Assembly: GCA_016208105.1 (NCBI GenBank) | Contig: JACQYS010000022.1 | Location: 372,001-436,000, forward strand | Direction of reading: 5' to 3' | Length of the DNA: 64,000 nucleotides | Source: Desulfovibrio sp. | GTDB lineage: Bacteria > Desulfobacterota > Desulfovibrionia > Desulfovibrionales > Desulfovibrionaceae | Part shown: piece after piece, positions 37,462 to 42,909 of the stretch | How positions within the stretch are numbered: position 1 is the stretch's first letter | Layout of the letters: each line of letters opens with the position of its first letter | The notes under the pieces: generated by a model | Told to the model about the DNA's origin: nothing | What the model saw: only the letters and a program-made list of their open reading frames with translations | The model's database searches: none | Program-made: the position numbers and the translations under genes

Positions 37462-38562
37462 GTGCCGGATAACGCTTCGTACCCCGTCAAGCTGGATGTC
37501 GTGGCCGTTGTTTCCGGCCTCGAAGAGCATTCCCGTCGCGACCGCCAGTGCGTGAAACAGCTCAAGGCCTCCATGATCCAGCAGTTCTCTTCAGGGTCGG
37601 AAGCCATCGATTTCCTTGGCGAGCGGGCGGTCGATCTCATCGTCCTTGATTCGCAGCTTTCGGACATGGACGGGCTCAAATTCTTAAGACTCCTGCGCCT
37701 GAACATGAACCTGAAGGAAACCCCCGTGGTCTTCGTGACCAACGAGGGGCAGAAGGACCGGGTGCTGGAGGCCATCGCCGCGGGAGTGGACGGCTACGTG
37801 CTGAGGCCCTACTCGGTGGAGACCTTCCACCGGCACATGCTGCGGGCGCTCAAGGTCGACAAGCTGGTGGAGATCGAGCACGCCCAGTTGAACGAAGGCA
37901 AGCGCCTGCTGGCGGCCGGAAAGTACGACGAAGCCATCGAAACCTTCGAGGAGCTGGTCAGCGAGGACAACCAGGCCCAGAAGTACTACGACATGGGCTG
38001 CAAGTACCTGGTGAAGCAGAAGTACGGCCAGGCCATTCTGGCCTTCAAGAAGGCCGTGAAGATAAACGAGCTCTACGCCGAGGCCTACAAGGGCCTGGCC
38101 GAGGCCTACAAGGGCAAGGGCGATCTGGAAGGCTACAAGACCTACCTGCAGAAGGCCGCCGAGACCTTCGCCCATTTCAACAGGCTGGAGGAAACCAAGG
38201 AGCTCTTCATCGAGGTGCTCAAGTACGACTCCAACAGCCCCAACCCCTTCAATACCCTGGGGGTCAGGCTGCGCAAGGAGGGGGATCTGCCCGGGGCGCT
38301 GCACGCCTACCGGCAGGCGCTGGAACTCACTCCGGACGACGAGAACATCCACTTCAACATGGCCAAGGCCCAGTTCTTCATGGGGGATAATCGGGGCTCG
38401 CAGGACGCGCTCTTGAAGGCACTGTGGATAAACCCCAATTTCACCGAGGCCTTAAAGCTCCACCTGAAGCTCTTCGGGCGCGAGTTCAAGCCGCCCAAGG
38501 GGGCGGGGATGCCCGGCGGGCCGCCGTCCAAGGGCACCATCGACAGCGCCCAGGATATATAG
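37462..38562 (+). CDS. Degenerate receiver domain fused to TPR repeats
   Basis: A 366-residue cytoplasmic protein. Residues ~10-130 have a receiver fold with Asp63 (LIVLDSQLSDMDG) and Thr93 (VFVTNE). The acidic pair normally at the start is replaced (VVAVVSGLEEH) and the conserved Lys is Arg115 (VLRPYS), so Mg-dependent phosphorylation is doubtful. Residues ~140-340 are TPR repeats (for example AQKYYDMGCKYLVKQKYGQA, AEAYKGLAEAYKGKGDLEGY and NIHFNMAKAQFFMGDNRGSQ). The start is GTG 37462 with CGGAG six bases upstream. It probably acts as a scaffold; partners are unknown. Confidence 0.9.
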   Translation: MPDNASYPVKLDVVAVVSGLEEHSRRDRQCVKQLKASMIQQFSSGSEAIDFLGERAVDLIVLDSQLSDMDGLKFLRLLRLNMNLKETPVVFVTNEGQKDRVLEAIAAGVDGYVLRPYSVETFHRHMLRALKVDKLVEIEHAQLNEGKRLLAAGKYDEAIETFEELVSEDNQAQKYYDMGCKYLVKQKYGQAILAFKKAVKINELYAEAYKGLAEAYKGKGDLEGYKTYLQKAAETFAHFNRLEETKELFIEVLKYDSNSPNPFNTLGVRLRKEGDLPGALHAYRQALELTPDDENIHFNMAKAQFFMGDNRGSQDALLKALWINPNFTEALKLHLKLFGREFKPPKGAGMPGGPPSKGTIDSAQDI

Positions 38563-39236: not shown

Positions 39237-40052
39237 CTAGCCCTCGTCCACCAGCGACCCCAGCTCGCTGCGCTTAAGCGCCTCACGGTCGAAATGGGCC
39301 TTCAGGTGGGCGTCTTTGGGGAAGATGCGGTGCTTGCGAAGATAGGCCAGGAAGGCCAGGGCCTCCTTGAAGCCGGGCTCGATCTCCAGGCAGCCCTTCA
39401 GGCCTTCGTAGGCCTTTTCCGCATCGCCTTTCTCGTACCAGGCCCGGGCTATGTTCAAAAGCAGGTTTTCGTCGTCCGGGCAGAGGGTCTTGGCCCGGTT
39501 GTAGAACGCAATGGCCTCTTCGAAGAGGCCCTTCTTGCGCAGGGCGATGCCGAAGTCGTTGAAGAGATGCTTGTGCTCGGGCAGGAAGCTCTCGTCGAGC
39601 TGCACGAGCTTTTCAAAGGCGTAGCGCCCTTTCTCAAGCTGATTGAGGGCCAGGTAGGCGATGCCCATGCCGAAATTGCCCCGGATGTTCTCCTCGTCGA
39701 TACGCAGCACCTGCTGGTATTCTATCTTGGCCTCCACGTTGAGGCCCTGCTGGCGGTAGTAGTCGCCCTTGAGCACCCGCTGGGTGAGCAAACGGTAGCC
39801 GAGATCCGGCTCCAGGGTGGACCCTTCCAGGAAAGTGTCCTTCTTCACCACATGCTGTTTCGGGGTCGGCAGGAAGTGTTCGTCCAAAAGCTGGACGGAG
39901 AGCATGCCGTCGCCGACCTCTTTGGCGAACCAGTAGCGTTTGGGAAACAGCGGGTCGGGCGCCTCGCCCGGAAGGGAAGGGGTCGAGAATATCCCCTTGA
40001 GCTTATGGGAGGCCTGGTCGTGCCCCCGGTCCAGTGTGTGCTTGCTAGTCAA
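39237..40052 (-). CDS. TPR-repeat protein of the mot cluster
   Basis: A 271-residue cytoplasmic protein. The first ~90 residues are a distinct domain (FPKRYWFAKEVGDGMLSVQL, DEHFLPTPKQHVVKKDTFL) followed by at least four TPR units (YRQQGLNVEAKIEYQQVLRI, FGMGIAYLALNQLEKGRYAF, FGIALRKKGLFEEAIAFYNR, LLNIARAWYEKGDAEKAYEG). Its start overlaps motB by four bases (ATGA), so it is translated with the stator genes. It probably binds another protein, perhaps a stator or assembly factor, but nothing in the sequence identifies the partner. Confidence 0.85.
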   Translation of the reverse strand: MTSKHTLDRGHDQASHKLKGIFSTPSLPGEAPDPLFPKRYWFAKEVGDGMLSVQLLDEHFLPTPKQHVVKKDTFLEGSTLEPDLGYRLLTQRVLKGDYYRQQGLNVEAKIEYQQVLRIDEENIRGNFGMGIAYLALNQLEKGRYAFEKLVQLDESFLPEHKHLFNDFGIALRKKGLFEEAIAFYNRAKTLCPDDENLLLNIARAWYEKGDAEKAYEGLKGCLEIEPGFKEALAFLAYLRKHRIFPKDAHLKAHFDREALKRSELGSLVDEG

Positions 40053-40873
40053 GGGTTGATCAACACGACCACGCGGCGGTTGCGGGCCTGGTTTTCGGGC
40101 AAGCCGTGGCCCTGGGGGCTCTCGTTGGGAGCTACGGGCCTGGTTTCGGCAAATCCGGCCACCTGGACACGGTCCCTGGCCACGCCGTGGTCGATGAGAT
40201 AGCGGGCCACGCGCGAGGCCCTGGCCGCCGAGAGTTCCCAGTTGGACGGATAGAGGAAGGACTGGATCGGAACGTTGTCGGTATGTCCCTCCACGATCAC
40301 CTTGTAGGGAGTGCCGCGCAGGGAGGCGGCAATGGAATCGAGATAGGTAACGGAGGGCGAGCTCAATTCGGCGCTGGCCCGGTCGAAGAGCACGGCGCCC
40401 TTGAGGGTGATGGCGTATCCGCCCTCGCGTTTTTCGATCTGCACTCCGGCCGGGTCCTGGGCGAAGCGCATGCCCAGTTCCGCGCCCAGCTCGTCCATGG
40501 TCTTTTGCTGCTGCCTGGGCCCGGTCTCGGCCGGTGGCTGCGTGGCCTGGCCGGGAGGCGTCTGGTACACCTGGGGGGGCAGGGCCGGCTGCACCACTGG
40601 GTAGAGCTGCCCGGTGGCGGCGGCGTCCTCTTTCAGGGAGAATCCGAGGGGCTTGGGCTGGGTCTGGGCGGATTCGCGTTTGGCCTTTTCAACCTTGAGC
40701 GCCTCCTCCATGGACTGGGCGACCTTCTTGTAGCGCTCCTGGTCCAGCTGCGAAACGGACACCATGAGAACGAAGAAGCACAACAGAAGGGTGAGCAGGT
40801 CCGCCAGGGAAATGAACCACGTCCCCTCGTCCTCTTCCTTGAGCCGTCCCCTCAGTGTGGAAAGCTTGAGCAT
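40049..40873 (-). CDS. motB: Flagellar stator protein MotB
   Basis: A 274-residue membrane protein that, with MotA, forms the ion-driven flagellar stator. A single TM at about residues 19-40 contains the ion-carrying Asp25 (FISLADLLTLLLCFFVLM). A Pro/Gln-rich linker (~85-125) follows, then an OmpA-like peptidoglycan-binding domain with VEGHTDNVPIQ and NWELSAARASRVARYL. It lies 66 bases after motA and overlaps the TPR gene by four bases. Proton versus sodium use cannot be decided here. Confidence 0.94.
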   Translation of the reverse strand: MLKLSTLRGRLKEEDEGTWFISLADLLTLLLCFFVLMVSVSQLDQERYKKVAQSMEEALKVEKAKRESAQTQPKPLGFSLKEDAAATGQLYPVVQPALPPQVYQTPPGQATQPPAETGPRQQQKTMDELGAELGMRFAQDPAGVQIEKREGGYAITLKGAVLFDRASAELSSPSVTYLDSIAASLRGTPYKVIVEGHTDNVPIQSFLYPSNWELSAARASRVARYLIDHGVARDRVQVAGFAETRPVAPNESPQGHGLPENQARNRRVVVLINP

Positions 40874-40939
40874 TTTCGCCTTGAGTCGCGTTTGGGTAAA
40901 CGACCCCGTTATTCCAGACGCCCCTTCGCCGTTGCCGGA

Positions 40940-41719
40940 TCAGGGGCGCGTGCCGATGGAGGCCCAGCGCCTGGGTGGCAGGTAGGCCTTGAGCTTGTCG
41001 TAGACGATTGCGGCCGGAGTCTTGTCCTTGATGAAAAGCACGCCGTCGCGGATCACGCACATGAGCAGCACCCGCTCTTCGATGCGTTTTTCCACCTTCA
41101 CCGCGATAGGCAGAAATATCAGGTTGGAAAGCAGGATTCCGTACAGGGTGGTGGTCAAGGCCACGGCCATGTGCTGGCCCAGGCTGGCGATGCCTCCGCC
41201 TCCCATGGCCTGCATGAGGCCGATGAAACCGATGAGCGTGCCGATGAGCCCGTAGGCCGGGGAGAGCTTGGCCATGGTGCGGTAGATGCCGGCCGAGGAA
41301 ATTTCCTGCTGGTAGGTCTGCTCGATGCGCGTTTCGAGGATCTCTTTCATCTCGTCGCGCGAGTAGCCGTCCACCAGCATCTGGAGGGCGTTCTGGAGAA
41401 ATTCGTTCTCAATGCCGGGCAGCGTTCTTTCCAGGTGGACCTTGCCGCGAGACGAGGCGTCCCGTGCGATCTGCACGATGGATTCGATGTAGTTGCCTAT
41501 GGGCAGTTCCTCGCGCTTCAAGGCGGTGAGGAAGATGTTGAACACCCGGGTGACTTCCTTCAGGGGGAAGCAGATGAAGGTGGAGGCCAGGGTGCCGCCG
41601 AGCACGATGGCCAGCCCGGGAAGGTTGATGAACACCCGGGCAGAGTCTGTGGCGAAGAACGTGGCCGTTCCAAGGACGATGATGCCGGCGACGAACCCTA
41701 TGACGGTTGCTATGTTCAC
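40940..41719 (-). CDS. motA: Flagellar stator protein MotA
   Basis: A 259-residue protein with four membrane segments: IGFVAGIIVLGTATFFA, LPGLAIVLGGTLASTFICF, LSPAYGLIGTLIGFIGLMQA and TTLYGILLSNLIFLPIAV. The conserved prolines near the ion channel (LSPAYG) and the charged cytoplasmic loop between TM2 and TM3 that contacts FliG are present. It starts with GTG 41719, overlapping the upstream cNMP/FliG-like gene by four bases (GTGA), so the stator is translated directly behind that regulator. Confidence 0.95.
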   Translation of the reverse strand: MNIATVIGFVAGIIVLGTATFFATDSARVFINLPGLAIVLGGTLASTFICFPLKEVTRVFNIFLTALKREELPIGNYIESIVQIARDASSRGKVHLERTLPGIENEFLQNALQMLVDGYSRDEMKEILETRIEQTYQQEISSAGIYRTMAKLSPAYGLIGTLIGFIGLMQAMGGGGIASLGQHMAVALTTTLYGILLSNLIFLPIAVKVEKRIEERVLLMCVIRDGVLFIKDKTPAAIVYDKLKAYLPPRRWASIGTRP

Positions 41720-42909
41720 CCGTTAAGCCCCTTCATGGACTTTATGAGATCCAAAAGCTCGTCTTCCACGTCCGAGGCTTCGCCAGTGTCCAGCTCCTTC
41801 ATGCCTTCCACCTCGCCCTTGACCACCGAGGCGATGTTCTTGGACAGGTTGTGGTAGATCTTCTTGCGGGCTTCGTCTCCGGCCATGGAGACCAGGACGG
41901 AGATCTTGTAAAAGCCGAGCTTGGTCAGGGCCTCTTCCAGGGTGGCGTTGTCCACGGCGATGATGTCGTCCACGGACTGGAGGTCTTCGATTTTCAGGCG
42001 GGGGCGTTTGGCCCGCTGGAAATAGTCCGGCCCTTTCTGCGCAGCGAAGGACATGGCCGTTGCCTTGTGGAAGAAGAAGACGTTCGGGGGGATGTCCCCG
42101 TAGGCGACCTTCTTCAAGATGGTGTCCGGCTGGGCTCCCACTTCGGCACAGAAATCGTCCAAATCGATGAACTCCATGTCCGTCGCGCAGGAGTCGTGGT
42201 GGTCCTTGGCCAGGTTCTTGGCCACCCGGGCGAAACGGTCCGTGTCCGGGATGGTCAGCAGGCGCTCCTTCACGTAGTCGCTGGACTTCTTCATGGTGCC
42301 CAGGAGAGGGTCCTTGCGGTAGTAGGTGCCCTTGATGTCCACGATGTCTATGATGTGCACCTTGGCCAGCCTGTCGAAGATGTCGTCGATCTCCACCTGG
42401 GAGATGAGCAGGATCTCCTTTATTGTCTTGGAAAGCTCGACCGTGGAAACCTGGGGGGCTTCATTCTTCGGGGTGGTCTTGGTGGCGGCGCGCCAGGCGA
42501 GCAGAATCACGCTGCAGACCGAGGCGAAGGTGTTGGCGCAGGGACGGTCCGGCATCCGGGCGTTCAACGCGCGGACGCGCTCCACCAGATAGGATGTGAT
42601 GATCTGGATAGGGCGCGGGCTCTTGAGCAGCAGCGTGTGCAAAAGCGTCTGGTCGAGGACGATGACCTCCGTGTAGTCCAAAGCTTCAGCCGAAGCCGTA
42701 CGCTTTTCCTCGGAGATGACGCCCATCTCGCCGAAAATCTGCCCCGGGCGGAGAATACCCAGATTGACCCGCTTGTTTCCCGTGATGCGGAAGAGTCCGA
42801 CGGCCCCCTGCTTGATGATGTAGGCCTCGTTGCTGGACTGGCCTTCCTTGTAGATGACCTGCCCTTTGTGGAAGATCTTGGTTTTGTCTCCCACTTCCTG
42901 TGTCTTCAT
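41716..42909 (-). CDS. Cyclic-nucleotide-binding protein with FliG-C-like domain
   Basis: A 397-residue cytoplasmic protein. Residues ~12-95 are a cNMP-binding domain (KGQVIYKEGQSSNEAYIIKQ, FGEMGVISEEKRTASAEA, the phosphate-binding region). Residues ~153-200 look like a winged helix (VELSKTIKEILLISQVEIDD). Residues ~312-393 resemble the FliG C-terminal domain: VDNATLEEALTKLG, AGDEARKKIYHNLSKNIASV, then DVEDELLDLI. Its position before and overlap with motA support a motor role. Key FliG torque charges do not appear kept. The start at 42909 has GGAGAG five bases upstream; a GTG at 42927 would bury it. The FliG match is by eye and the function is inferred. Confidence 0.82.
   Translation of the reverse strand: MKTQEVGDKTKIFHKGQVIYKEGQSSNEAYIIKQGAVGLFRITGNKRVNLGILRPGQIFGEMGVISEEKRTASAEALDYTEVIVLDQTLLHTLLLKSPRPIQIITSYLVERVRALNARMPDRPCANTFASVCSVILLAWRAATKTTPKNEAPQVSTVELSKTIKEILLISQVEIDDIFDRLAKVHIIDIVDIKGTYYRKDPLLGTMKKSSDYVKERLLTIPDTDRFARVAKNLAKDHHDSCATDMEFIDLDDFCAEVGAQPDTILKKVAYGDIPPNVFFFHKATAMSFAAQKGPDYFQRAKRPRLKIEDLQSVDDIIAVDNATLEEALTKLGFYKISVLVSMAGDEARKKIYHNLSKNIASVVKGEVEGMKELDTGEASDVEDELLDLIKSMKGLNG

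Follow-up and report, generated by a model that had tools for sequence, protein, structure and literature searches.

A cyclic-nucleotide-binding protein with a FliG-C domain, encoded with a dedicated MotAB stator in Desulfovibrio-like bacteria: a probable small-molecule switch for a private motor

Introduction

To our knowledge, the known direct regulators of the flagellar motor either respond to cyclic diguanylate (c-di-GMP), as do YcgR and MotI, or act on the rotor, as does EpsE. The MotI/DgrA clutch shares the working principle of YcgR and is likewise responsive to c-di-GMP. Direct inhibition of the motor has been described for YcgR with c-di-GMP and for EpsE, which binds FliG, and cyclic AMP (cAMP) acts through CRP on transcription (PMC13432727). 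In Escherichia coli, MotA and FliG meet in two charged contacts, MotA R90 with FliG D288-D289 and MotA E98 with FliG R281 (PMC12505986). Here we analyze a gene located within a 64,000-nucleotide (nt) stretch of the Desulfovibrio sp. genome (assembly GCA_016208105.1, contig JACQYS010000022.1, positions 372,001 to 436,000 of the forward strand; this whole stretch is referred to below as the window). Its product, which we name cNF, combines a cyclic-nucleotide-binding domain (cNBD), two winged-helix-like domains (HTH1 and HTH2) and a homologue of the C-terminal domain of FliG (FliG_C), and the gene is followed by motA and motB.

The three-gene unit cNF-motA-motB, which is found in many Desulfovibrio-like bacteria, is probably a small-molecule switch for a private motor. 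We assign a probability of roughly 0.55 to the reading that cNF is a cAMP-responsive regulator docking on a private flagellar stator by mimicry of FliG; putative here are its physical docking, its ligand and the direction in which it regulates. The computed support comprises (i) the homology and fold of the FliG_C domain, (ii) the nucleotide-contact residues, (iii) a tight operon, (iv) exclusive pairing with one type of MotA and (v) retained charges.

Second-messenger control of the flagellar stator is known, whereas the cNF route is unrelated and apparently undescribed as far as the open-access literature was searched: no description of cNF or of its stator arrangement was found there (in part among best matches only, subscription papers lying outside the scope). 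The principle that cNF is proposed to share with the YcgR brake is that of a second-messenger protein acting on MotA at the contacts of the FliG torque helix (PMC12713396). However, cNF is unrelated to YcgR: it lacks a PilZ domain, carries a domain of the cyclic nucleoside monophosphate (cNMP) type rather than one for c-di-GMP, would dock through a FliG homologue, and is encoded with a private stator. With FliG it shares, in its tail, the PF01706 domain and the fold, and in most members the charges of R281 and D289 are present as K and E; unlike FliG, it has neither the N-terminal nor the middle domain needed for building the C-ring, is fused to a cNBD and has lost the equivalents of K264 and R297. 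The domain order cNBD-HTH1-HTH2 is that of Bd2879 of Bdellovibrio (PDB 9SFA), which ends in a zinc-finger region, and Bdellovibrio Bd1971, which carries an EAL domain, has the most similar cNBD fold, in which the ligand residues also correspond; the available parts of the source (PMC12750041) mention no FliG-C domain in either protein. Compared with PomAB/MotAB, the MotA of the window is closest to the PomA model, and the plug-type and OmpA domains of MotB are shared, but this MotA belongs to a separate clade, has lost R90 and, in the search of 149 genomes, occurs solely next to cNF.

Results

A FliG-C domain at the end of cNF

A first-pass annotation of this DNA, made from the sequence alone, had noticed that the tail of cNF resembles FliG-C. 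Sequence comparison and structure prediction bear this out and indicate that the resemblance is homology, because (i) the Pfam model FliG_C (PF01706) matched residues 312-392 with 28.2 bits in the whole protein and 31.7 bits in the last 102 aa, above the curated cut-off of 23.3, (ii) phmmer, run with this 102-aa tail, placed FliG first among the PDB sequences (4fhr, 9.9e-7; 1lkv, 1.3e-6; 1qc7, 9.2e-6), (iii) the profile-profile comparison with FliG (hhalign, 21 FliG proteins of the family), which the annotation had proposed, gave an E value of 1.3e-6 and a probability of 90.6 over 82 collinear columns (2.1e-5 and 76.7 when the full-length cNF alignment was used) and (iv) the FliG fold was recovered, with a root-mean-square deviation (rmsd) of 1.5-1.9 Å from solved FliG overall. 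Taken together, the Pfam score and the phmmer, profile and fold matches rule out a chance resemblance.

The fold was predicted with AlphaFold for residues 200-397 (predicted local distance difference test, pLDDT, 80.7; predicted TM-score, pTM, 0.50) and for full-length cNF (mean pLDDT 78.2, pTM 0.33). Because of the latter pTM, the relative placement of the domains was left unused. In a Foldseek search with the C-terminal model, the first 17 rows were FliG or flagellar C-ring/motor entries, at weak E values (best 1.1e-3). This model matched FliG 1qc7_B with TMt 0.86 at 1.6 Å and 8ucs_H, a FliG bound to the MotAB stator, with TMt 0.81 at 1.5 Å, and FliG 4fhr_B could be superposed on residues 309-396 of the full-length model with Z 14.0 at 1.8 Å over 87 residues.

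The cNBD named in the first-pass annotation is present (PF00027, cNMP_binding; residues 12-95, E 6.4e-20, 71.4 bits against a curated cut-off of 27.5). The winged helix mentioned there is also present, and it is followed by a second winged-helix-like region (residues ~222-300), HTH2, which the annotation did not mention; this was assigned by position relative to the domain order of Bd2879, its fold having no independent match. In the full-length model, the closest structural match of the cNBD is Bd1971 (Z 17.4, 1.5 Å, 107 residues), and the matches extending into HTH1 are CRP 4ev0 and Bd2879 9sfa. Foldseek also placed Bd2879 (9SFA) at the top for this model (E 3.7e-12), with a poor superposition of all domains (rmsd 19.4 Å), and the VIA list barely covers residues 121-308. 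Among 24 aligned members (window included), cNMP_binding was detected in all and FliG_C in 23 at E <= 0.01. FliG_C is the best-conserved domain, its mean pairwise identity over the 44 loci with motA and motB being 0.53, versus 0.49, 0.39 and 0.42 in the other three. A Pfam scan of the window protein yielded no match to FliG_N or to the FliG middle domain, and FliG_N was weakly matched by 3 of the 24 relatives (best E 0.001). No PilZ domain was listed at E <= 5 in a HMMER scan, whose filters drop most very weak matches.

Pairing with a dedicated stator

We read 54 regions of the family genomes, which together with the window make 55 regions holding 65 copies of cNF. A motA gene on the same strand lies directly downstream of cNF in 45 of the 55 (window included). 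At these junctions the genes overlap by 4 nt (33 loci) or 1 nt (6 loci), or are separated, the closest plausible start of motA being 32-58 nt further on (6 loci). Apart from the window, 44 genomes each have a locus with cNF directly upstream of motA, which rules out a one-off fusion or an annotation artefact. A motB gene was found after motA in 44 of the 45 linked loci; at locus L060 it is broken across two reading frames where the sequence contains unread bases (N), and at L056 only a 35-residue match overlapping the end of motA was found.

A search of 149 genomes of the family with the MotA of the window produced 45 matches at 321-553 bits (58-100% identity), followed by one at 151 bits (36%). 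Both cNF and this dedicated MotA were found in 45 genomes, cNF only in one (G014), MotA only in none, and neither in 103, counts that are weakened as support by the fact that the genomes are not phylogenetically independent. In five genera (g5, g13, g21, g36 and g43) some genomes hold both genes and the rest neither. A maximum-likelihood tree of the 45 dedicated MotA, 24 other MotA-like proteins and ExbB, obtained in a quick search and with long branches flagged, placed the 45 on one side of a branch (SH-like approximate likelihood ratio test 100; stem 1.59). cNF is paired exclusively with one MotA clade in the genomes searched. Mirror-tree correlations over 44 loci were 0.88 for cNF-MotA, 0.91 for cNF-MotB and 0.80 for MotA-MotB, values that may merely reflect shared descent.

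The best model for the MotA of the window is PomA (161 bits, under the curated cut-off of 341). Its own genome encodes four further MotA-like proteins (L034, L036, L037 and L038), three of which score above the MotA_N cut-off. Of 44 aligned MotB rows, 43 have D at the ion-binding position and one has a gap, while all 45 linked MotA proteins keep two prolines; we take these residues to have their usual roles in the stator.

Residues at the rotor-stator contact

The contact positions were compared in an alignment of 65 cNF and 21 FliG proteins, with the four MotA paralogues of the same genome and the 20 next-best matches from other genomes as MotA controls. Two further FliG residues, K264 and R297, which we take to be contact charges, were included. 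Among all cNF proteins, the equivalent of R281 is K in 62 of 65, that of D289 is E or D in 62 and that of D288 is E or D in 47. In the 45 copies linked to motA, R281 is replaced by K in 43, D289 by E in 43, and D288 is acidic in 41; in the 20 unlinked copies the corresponding values are 19 (K), 19 (E/D) and 6, a contrast at D288 that is not corrected for descent.

In the window protein the equivalents are S341 (the Lys of the ALKGA motif), N358 (R281), G365 (D288), E366 (D289) and D374 (R297). The first-pass annotation had proposed that the charges used for torque are lost, since the ALKGA Lys and the SQRAAD Arg are replaced. For the window protein this holds in part, as Ser341 and Asn358 occupy these two positions. 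For the family it does not: the linked-member counts rule out charge loss as a family trait, and at position 358, where Lys is present in 62 of 65 members and Asn in 2, the loss is nearly unique to the window protein. The suggestion drawn from it, that cNF binds the stator without driving rotation, is left unsupported, because the family mostly keeps the charges of R281, D288 and D289, K264 and R297 being gone.

On the stator side, E98 is present in all 45 linked MotA and in 23 of the 24 controls. The equivalent of R90 is found in none of the 45 (mostly S/A, with two gaps) versus all 24 controls, including the four paralogues of the same genome, and position 92 is R or K in 41 of 45 versus E in 21 of 24. 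A charge swap between cNF D374, at the position of FliG R297, and MotA position 92 is not claimed, because D374 lies just before the last helix, where S, E, N, T and V substitute for it and a helix cap is equally likely.

The nucleotide pocket and cyclases

In Bd1971 the ribose of the ligand is contacted by E58/M59 and its phosphate by R67/S68, R108 caps the base, and N113 is a further contact (PMC12750041). With an offset of 3 (model residues 8-114 on chain residues 5-111), these map to E61/M62, R70/T71, R111 and N116 of cNF. Within the 65 family sequences, E61 is conserved in all, R70 in 61 and R111 in 57. The most likely ligand of cNF is cAMP.

We also searched the 149 family genomes for cyclases of class III (E <= 1e-5, counted by eye; classes I, II and IV were left out). 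All but one (G090) of the 46 cNF genomes, hence 45, have such a cyclase, versus 43 of the 103 others, and, when only genomes of at least 3.0 Mb are considered, the counts are 44 of 45 versus 28 of 52. The genome of the window has one match, a CHASE2-cyclase. This co-occurrence fits cAMP as the ligand of cNF.

Distribution

A genome was considered to encode cNF if a match of at least 148 bits ran from the cNBD into the FliG-C end, and 46 of the 149 family genomes do so; 102 match at E <= 0.001, but this tally includes cNBD-only matches. In a search of the order with the cNF alignment, matches at E <= 1e-30 came from 66 of 297 genomes, all belonging to the same family, and a phylum sample gave four full-length matches in 395 genomes, again all from this family. 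The named genera with matches include Fundidesulfovibrio, Solidesulfovibrio and Pseudodesulfovibrio. In 22 named Desulfovibrio-like loci (L094-L115, partly overlapping the family genomes), motA is next to cNF in 20; of the other two, L110 is cut off by the end of its contig, whereas L106 holds an orphan cNF that has FliG_C. Canonical FliG is encoded in all 46 cNF genomes, that of the window genome being a separate, full-length protein (L001). In 20 of the 149 assemblies, several of them incomplete, FliG is missing or only weakly matched, and none of these 20 has cNF.

The phylum sample also contains three genomes from a different family (f6) whose matches cover the first half of cNF. The locus read among these, L143, encodes a 404-aa protein with a cNBD and FliG_C (L143:1501-2712; FliG_C 46.3 bits), and the 1.5 kb read to either side of it contains no motAB. 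Its neighbours, named by eye, are histidine-kinase-like and GGDEF-like genes, and its ALK and IRDEM motifs are nearer to those of true FliG. A protein of the Syntrophobacterales (L116) matches cNF residues 13-299 and has no FliG_C match. In genus g8, cNF-like genes occur as tandem pairs at L083-L091, where no motAB is adjacent; in the pair of L084, FliG_C scores 34.8 bits (above the cut-off) in one protein and 17 (below) in the other.

Further proteins with FliG_C domains were encountered. Two g8 genomes encode proteins of 817 and 836 aa (L202:1526-3976 and L203:1565-4072) with a FliG_C-like domain near the C-terminus that keeps residues of the R281/D289 type (SERA...REDME). Proteins of 273-581 aa bearing FliG_C, apparently not FliG, occur at L204, L205, L206 and L208 in the same family, and L209:2948-3403 and L210:3138-3644 encode short FliG-like proteins (152 and 169 aa), which are essentially the C-terminal part of FliG alone.

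Gene organization

The features of the locus are listed in Table 1. Reading of the open reading frames (ORFs) of the window gives the minus-strand order cNF, motA, motB and a TPR protein gene. On re-reading, the ORFs and the two 4-base overlaps were as the first-pass annotation had described them, the shared bases being GTGA between cNF and motA and TTGA between motB and the TPR gene. The latter gene is not core to the unit, because among the regions read only some of the family have it after motB. The divergent neighbours of the operon, which we take to be pyrK/pyrD-like genes, stay beside it in part of the relatives. A response regulator with TPR repeats (window positions 37462-38562, plus strand), convergent to the operon, is also retained nearby in part of the relatives.

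Table 1. Features of the cNF-motA-motB locus (positions in the window)
Feature	Position	Strand	Remarks
cNF (cNBD-HTH1-HTH2-FliG_C) gene	41716..42909	-	397 aa, ATG at 42909; orthologues found
cNF, alternative start			in-frame upstream GTG, giving 403 aa
cNBD, residues ~8-118	42556..42888	-	PF00027; structural match to Bd1971 cNBD; E61, R70, R111 kept
HTH1, first winged-helix-like domain, residues ~124-219	42253..42540	-	predicted from model; as in CRP and Bd2879
HTH2, second helical domain, residues ~222-300	42010..42246	-	predicted from models; position of HTH2 of Bd2879
FliG C-terminal-domain homologue, residues 309-396	41722..41985	-	Pfam, PDB sequence, profile and fold
motA, dedicated	40940..41719	-	GTG start, 4-nt overlap with cNF; R90 equivalent lost, E98 kept
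motB	40049..40873	-	N-terminal domain of the plug type, OmpA-like peptidoglycan-binding domain; retains the ion-binding Asp
TPR protein gene	39237..40052	-	4-nt overlap with motB, provided the TTG start is correct

Discussion

In the simplest model, cNF would sit on its partner MotA and cAMP would set whether it stays. By mimicking the rotor face that is usually in contact with MotA, the FliG-C domain would be able to settle on the partner's cytoplasmic ring. Nucleotide binding at the N-terminal domain would rearrange cNF, and this rearrangement would either place the FliG-C head on the face of MotA, leaving the stator idle or braked, or take it away, letting the stator join the motor; the opposite assignment is equally conceivable. 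Depending on this sign, cNF would act as a brake, a clutch or a recruiter. YcgR binds MotA at the residues contacted by the torque helix of FliG, with suppressors at MotA positions 91, 93 and 96 (PMC12713396); by analogy, a FliG-C homologue would be a ready-made ligand for this face.

Several observations weigh against regulation by FliG mimicry and cAMP. Twenty of the 65 cNF copies have no adjacent motA. Tandem pairs in nine g8 genomes, each with an additional motA-linked copy, account for 18 of them, and the other two belong to G023, as its second copy, and to G014, as its only one. Copies without a stator are also present in the orphan contig L106 and in L143, from another family. Of the contact positions only D288 tracks linkage, since the equivalents of R281 and D289 are kept equally often in unlinked copies. 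The K264 equivalent is K in 1 of 65 cNF proteins and that of R297 is R/K in none, and the partner MotA lacks R90, half of a canonical contact pair. With R90, K264 and R297 lost, docking need not copy the mode of the rotor. The window protein itself is an outlier at the contact charges, with N and G where its relatives have K and D/E. In the pocket, the fourth contact of Bd1971, N116, is not conserved among the 65 sequences, and the class III cyclases may serve other receptors.

With R90 missing from its MotA, this stator may be better matched to cNF than to the rotor. An extended form of the proposal, which we regard as unlikely, takes this further: the torque-contact domain of FliG would have become separated from the rotor and now serve, under the control of a signal, to dock on an insulated 5:2 motor of its own. 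The unit would have three parts (a cAMP sensor with a FliG head, MotA and MotB) and a distinct, retuned charge code, in which MotA R90 is absent and position 92 is basic. Its genes would be acquired and lost together, and it would operate orthogonally to the cell's four other MotA-type stators.

The same features of MotA could point to a motor that does not drive the flagellum, with the rotating MotA ring of the private MotAB acting on cNF, rather than on the C-ring, as its load, so that ion flow would give a mechanical or signalling output in the cytoplasm under cyclic-nucleotide control. The complete loss of R90 and the basic residue at position 92 look as if the contact had been retuned, the clade sits on a long stem, and the ion-path residues are retained. 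However, every cNF genome also has flagellar FliG, the assemblies without FliG have no cNF, and the plug-type and OmpA domains of MotB are tied to flagellar stators by a survey of MotAB (PMC12505986), which makes this alternative improbable.

Still less probable is that cNF is a DNA-binding regulator of the stator operon, of the CRP/Bd2879 type, whose FliG-C tail merely senses engagement of the stator. The domain order is that of Bd2879, a putative transcription factor (PMC12750041). Together with CRP proteins, Bd2879 leads the structural matches beyond the cNBD. Against this, at the positions that we take to be R180, E181 and R185 of the CRP recognition helix (aligned via the S-R-E-T-V-G-R motif), HTH1 has Gln in 48 of 65 sequences, mostly L/I/V, and Arg in only 10 of 65, respectively. 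HTH2 is net negative (median -5), and a scan of the window for the CRP consensus with up to 2 mismatches gave nine matches, below the shuffle mean of 15.8 and none of them upstream of the cNF gene. These results may be compatible with DNA binding of another kind. The least probable alternative is that cNF is a chaperone or adapter which stabilizes or places the private stator, with a nucleotide domain that is structural or serves another ligand: cNF overlaps motA in 39 of 45 loci and stator chaperones such as FlgX exist (PMC6686046), but the nucleotide-contact residues are conserved beyond structural need, and the mimicry of FliG-C would point to the torque face, not to an assembly site.

If the reading of cNF as a cAMP-responsive stator regulator is true, a sensor of cyclic mononucleotides that reaches MotA through a FliG homologue would represent a new mode of stator control. 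The unit would also provide a natural, isolated pair of FliG-C and MotA with a diverged interface, suited to charge-swap tests of the contact code (R90/D288-D289 and E98/R281). The cNF family also presents FliG-C as a portable domain in sulfate reducers.

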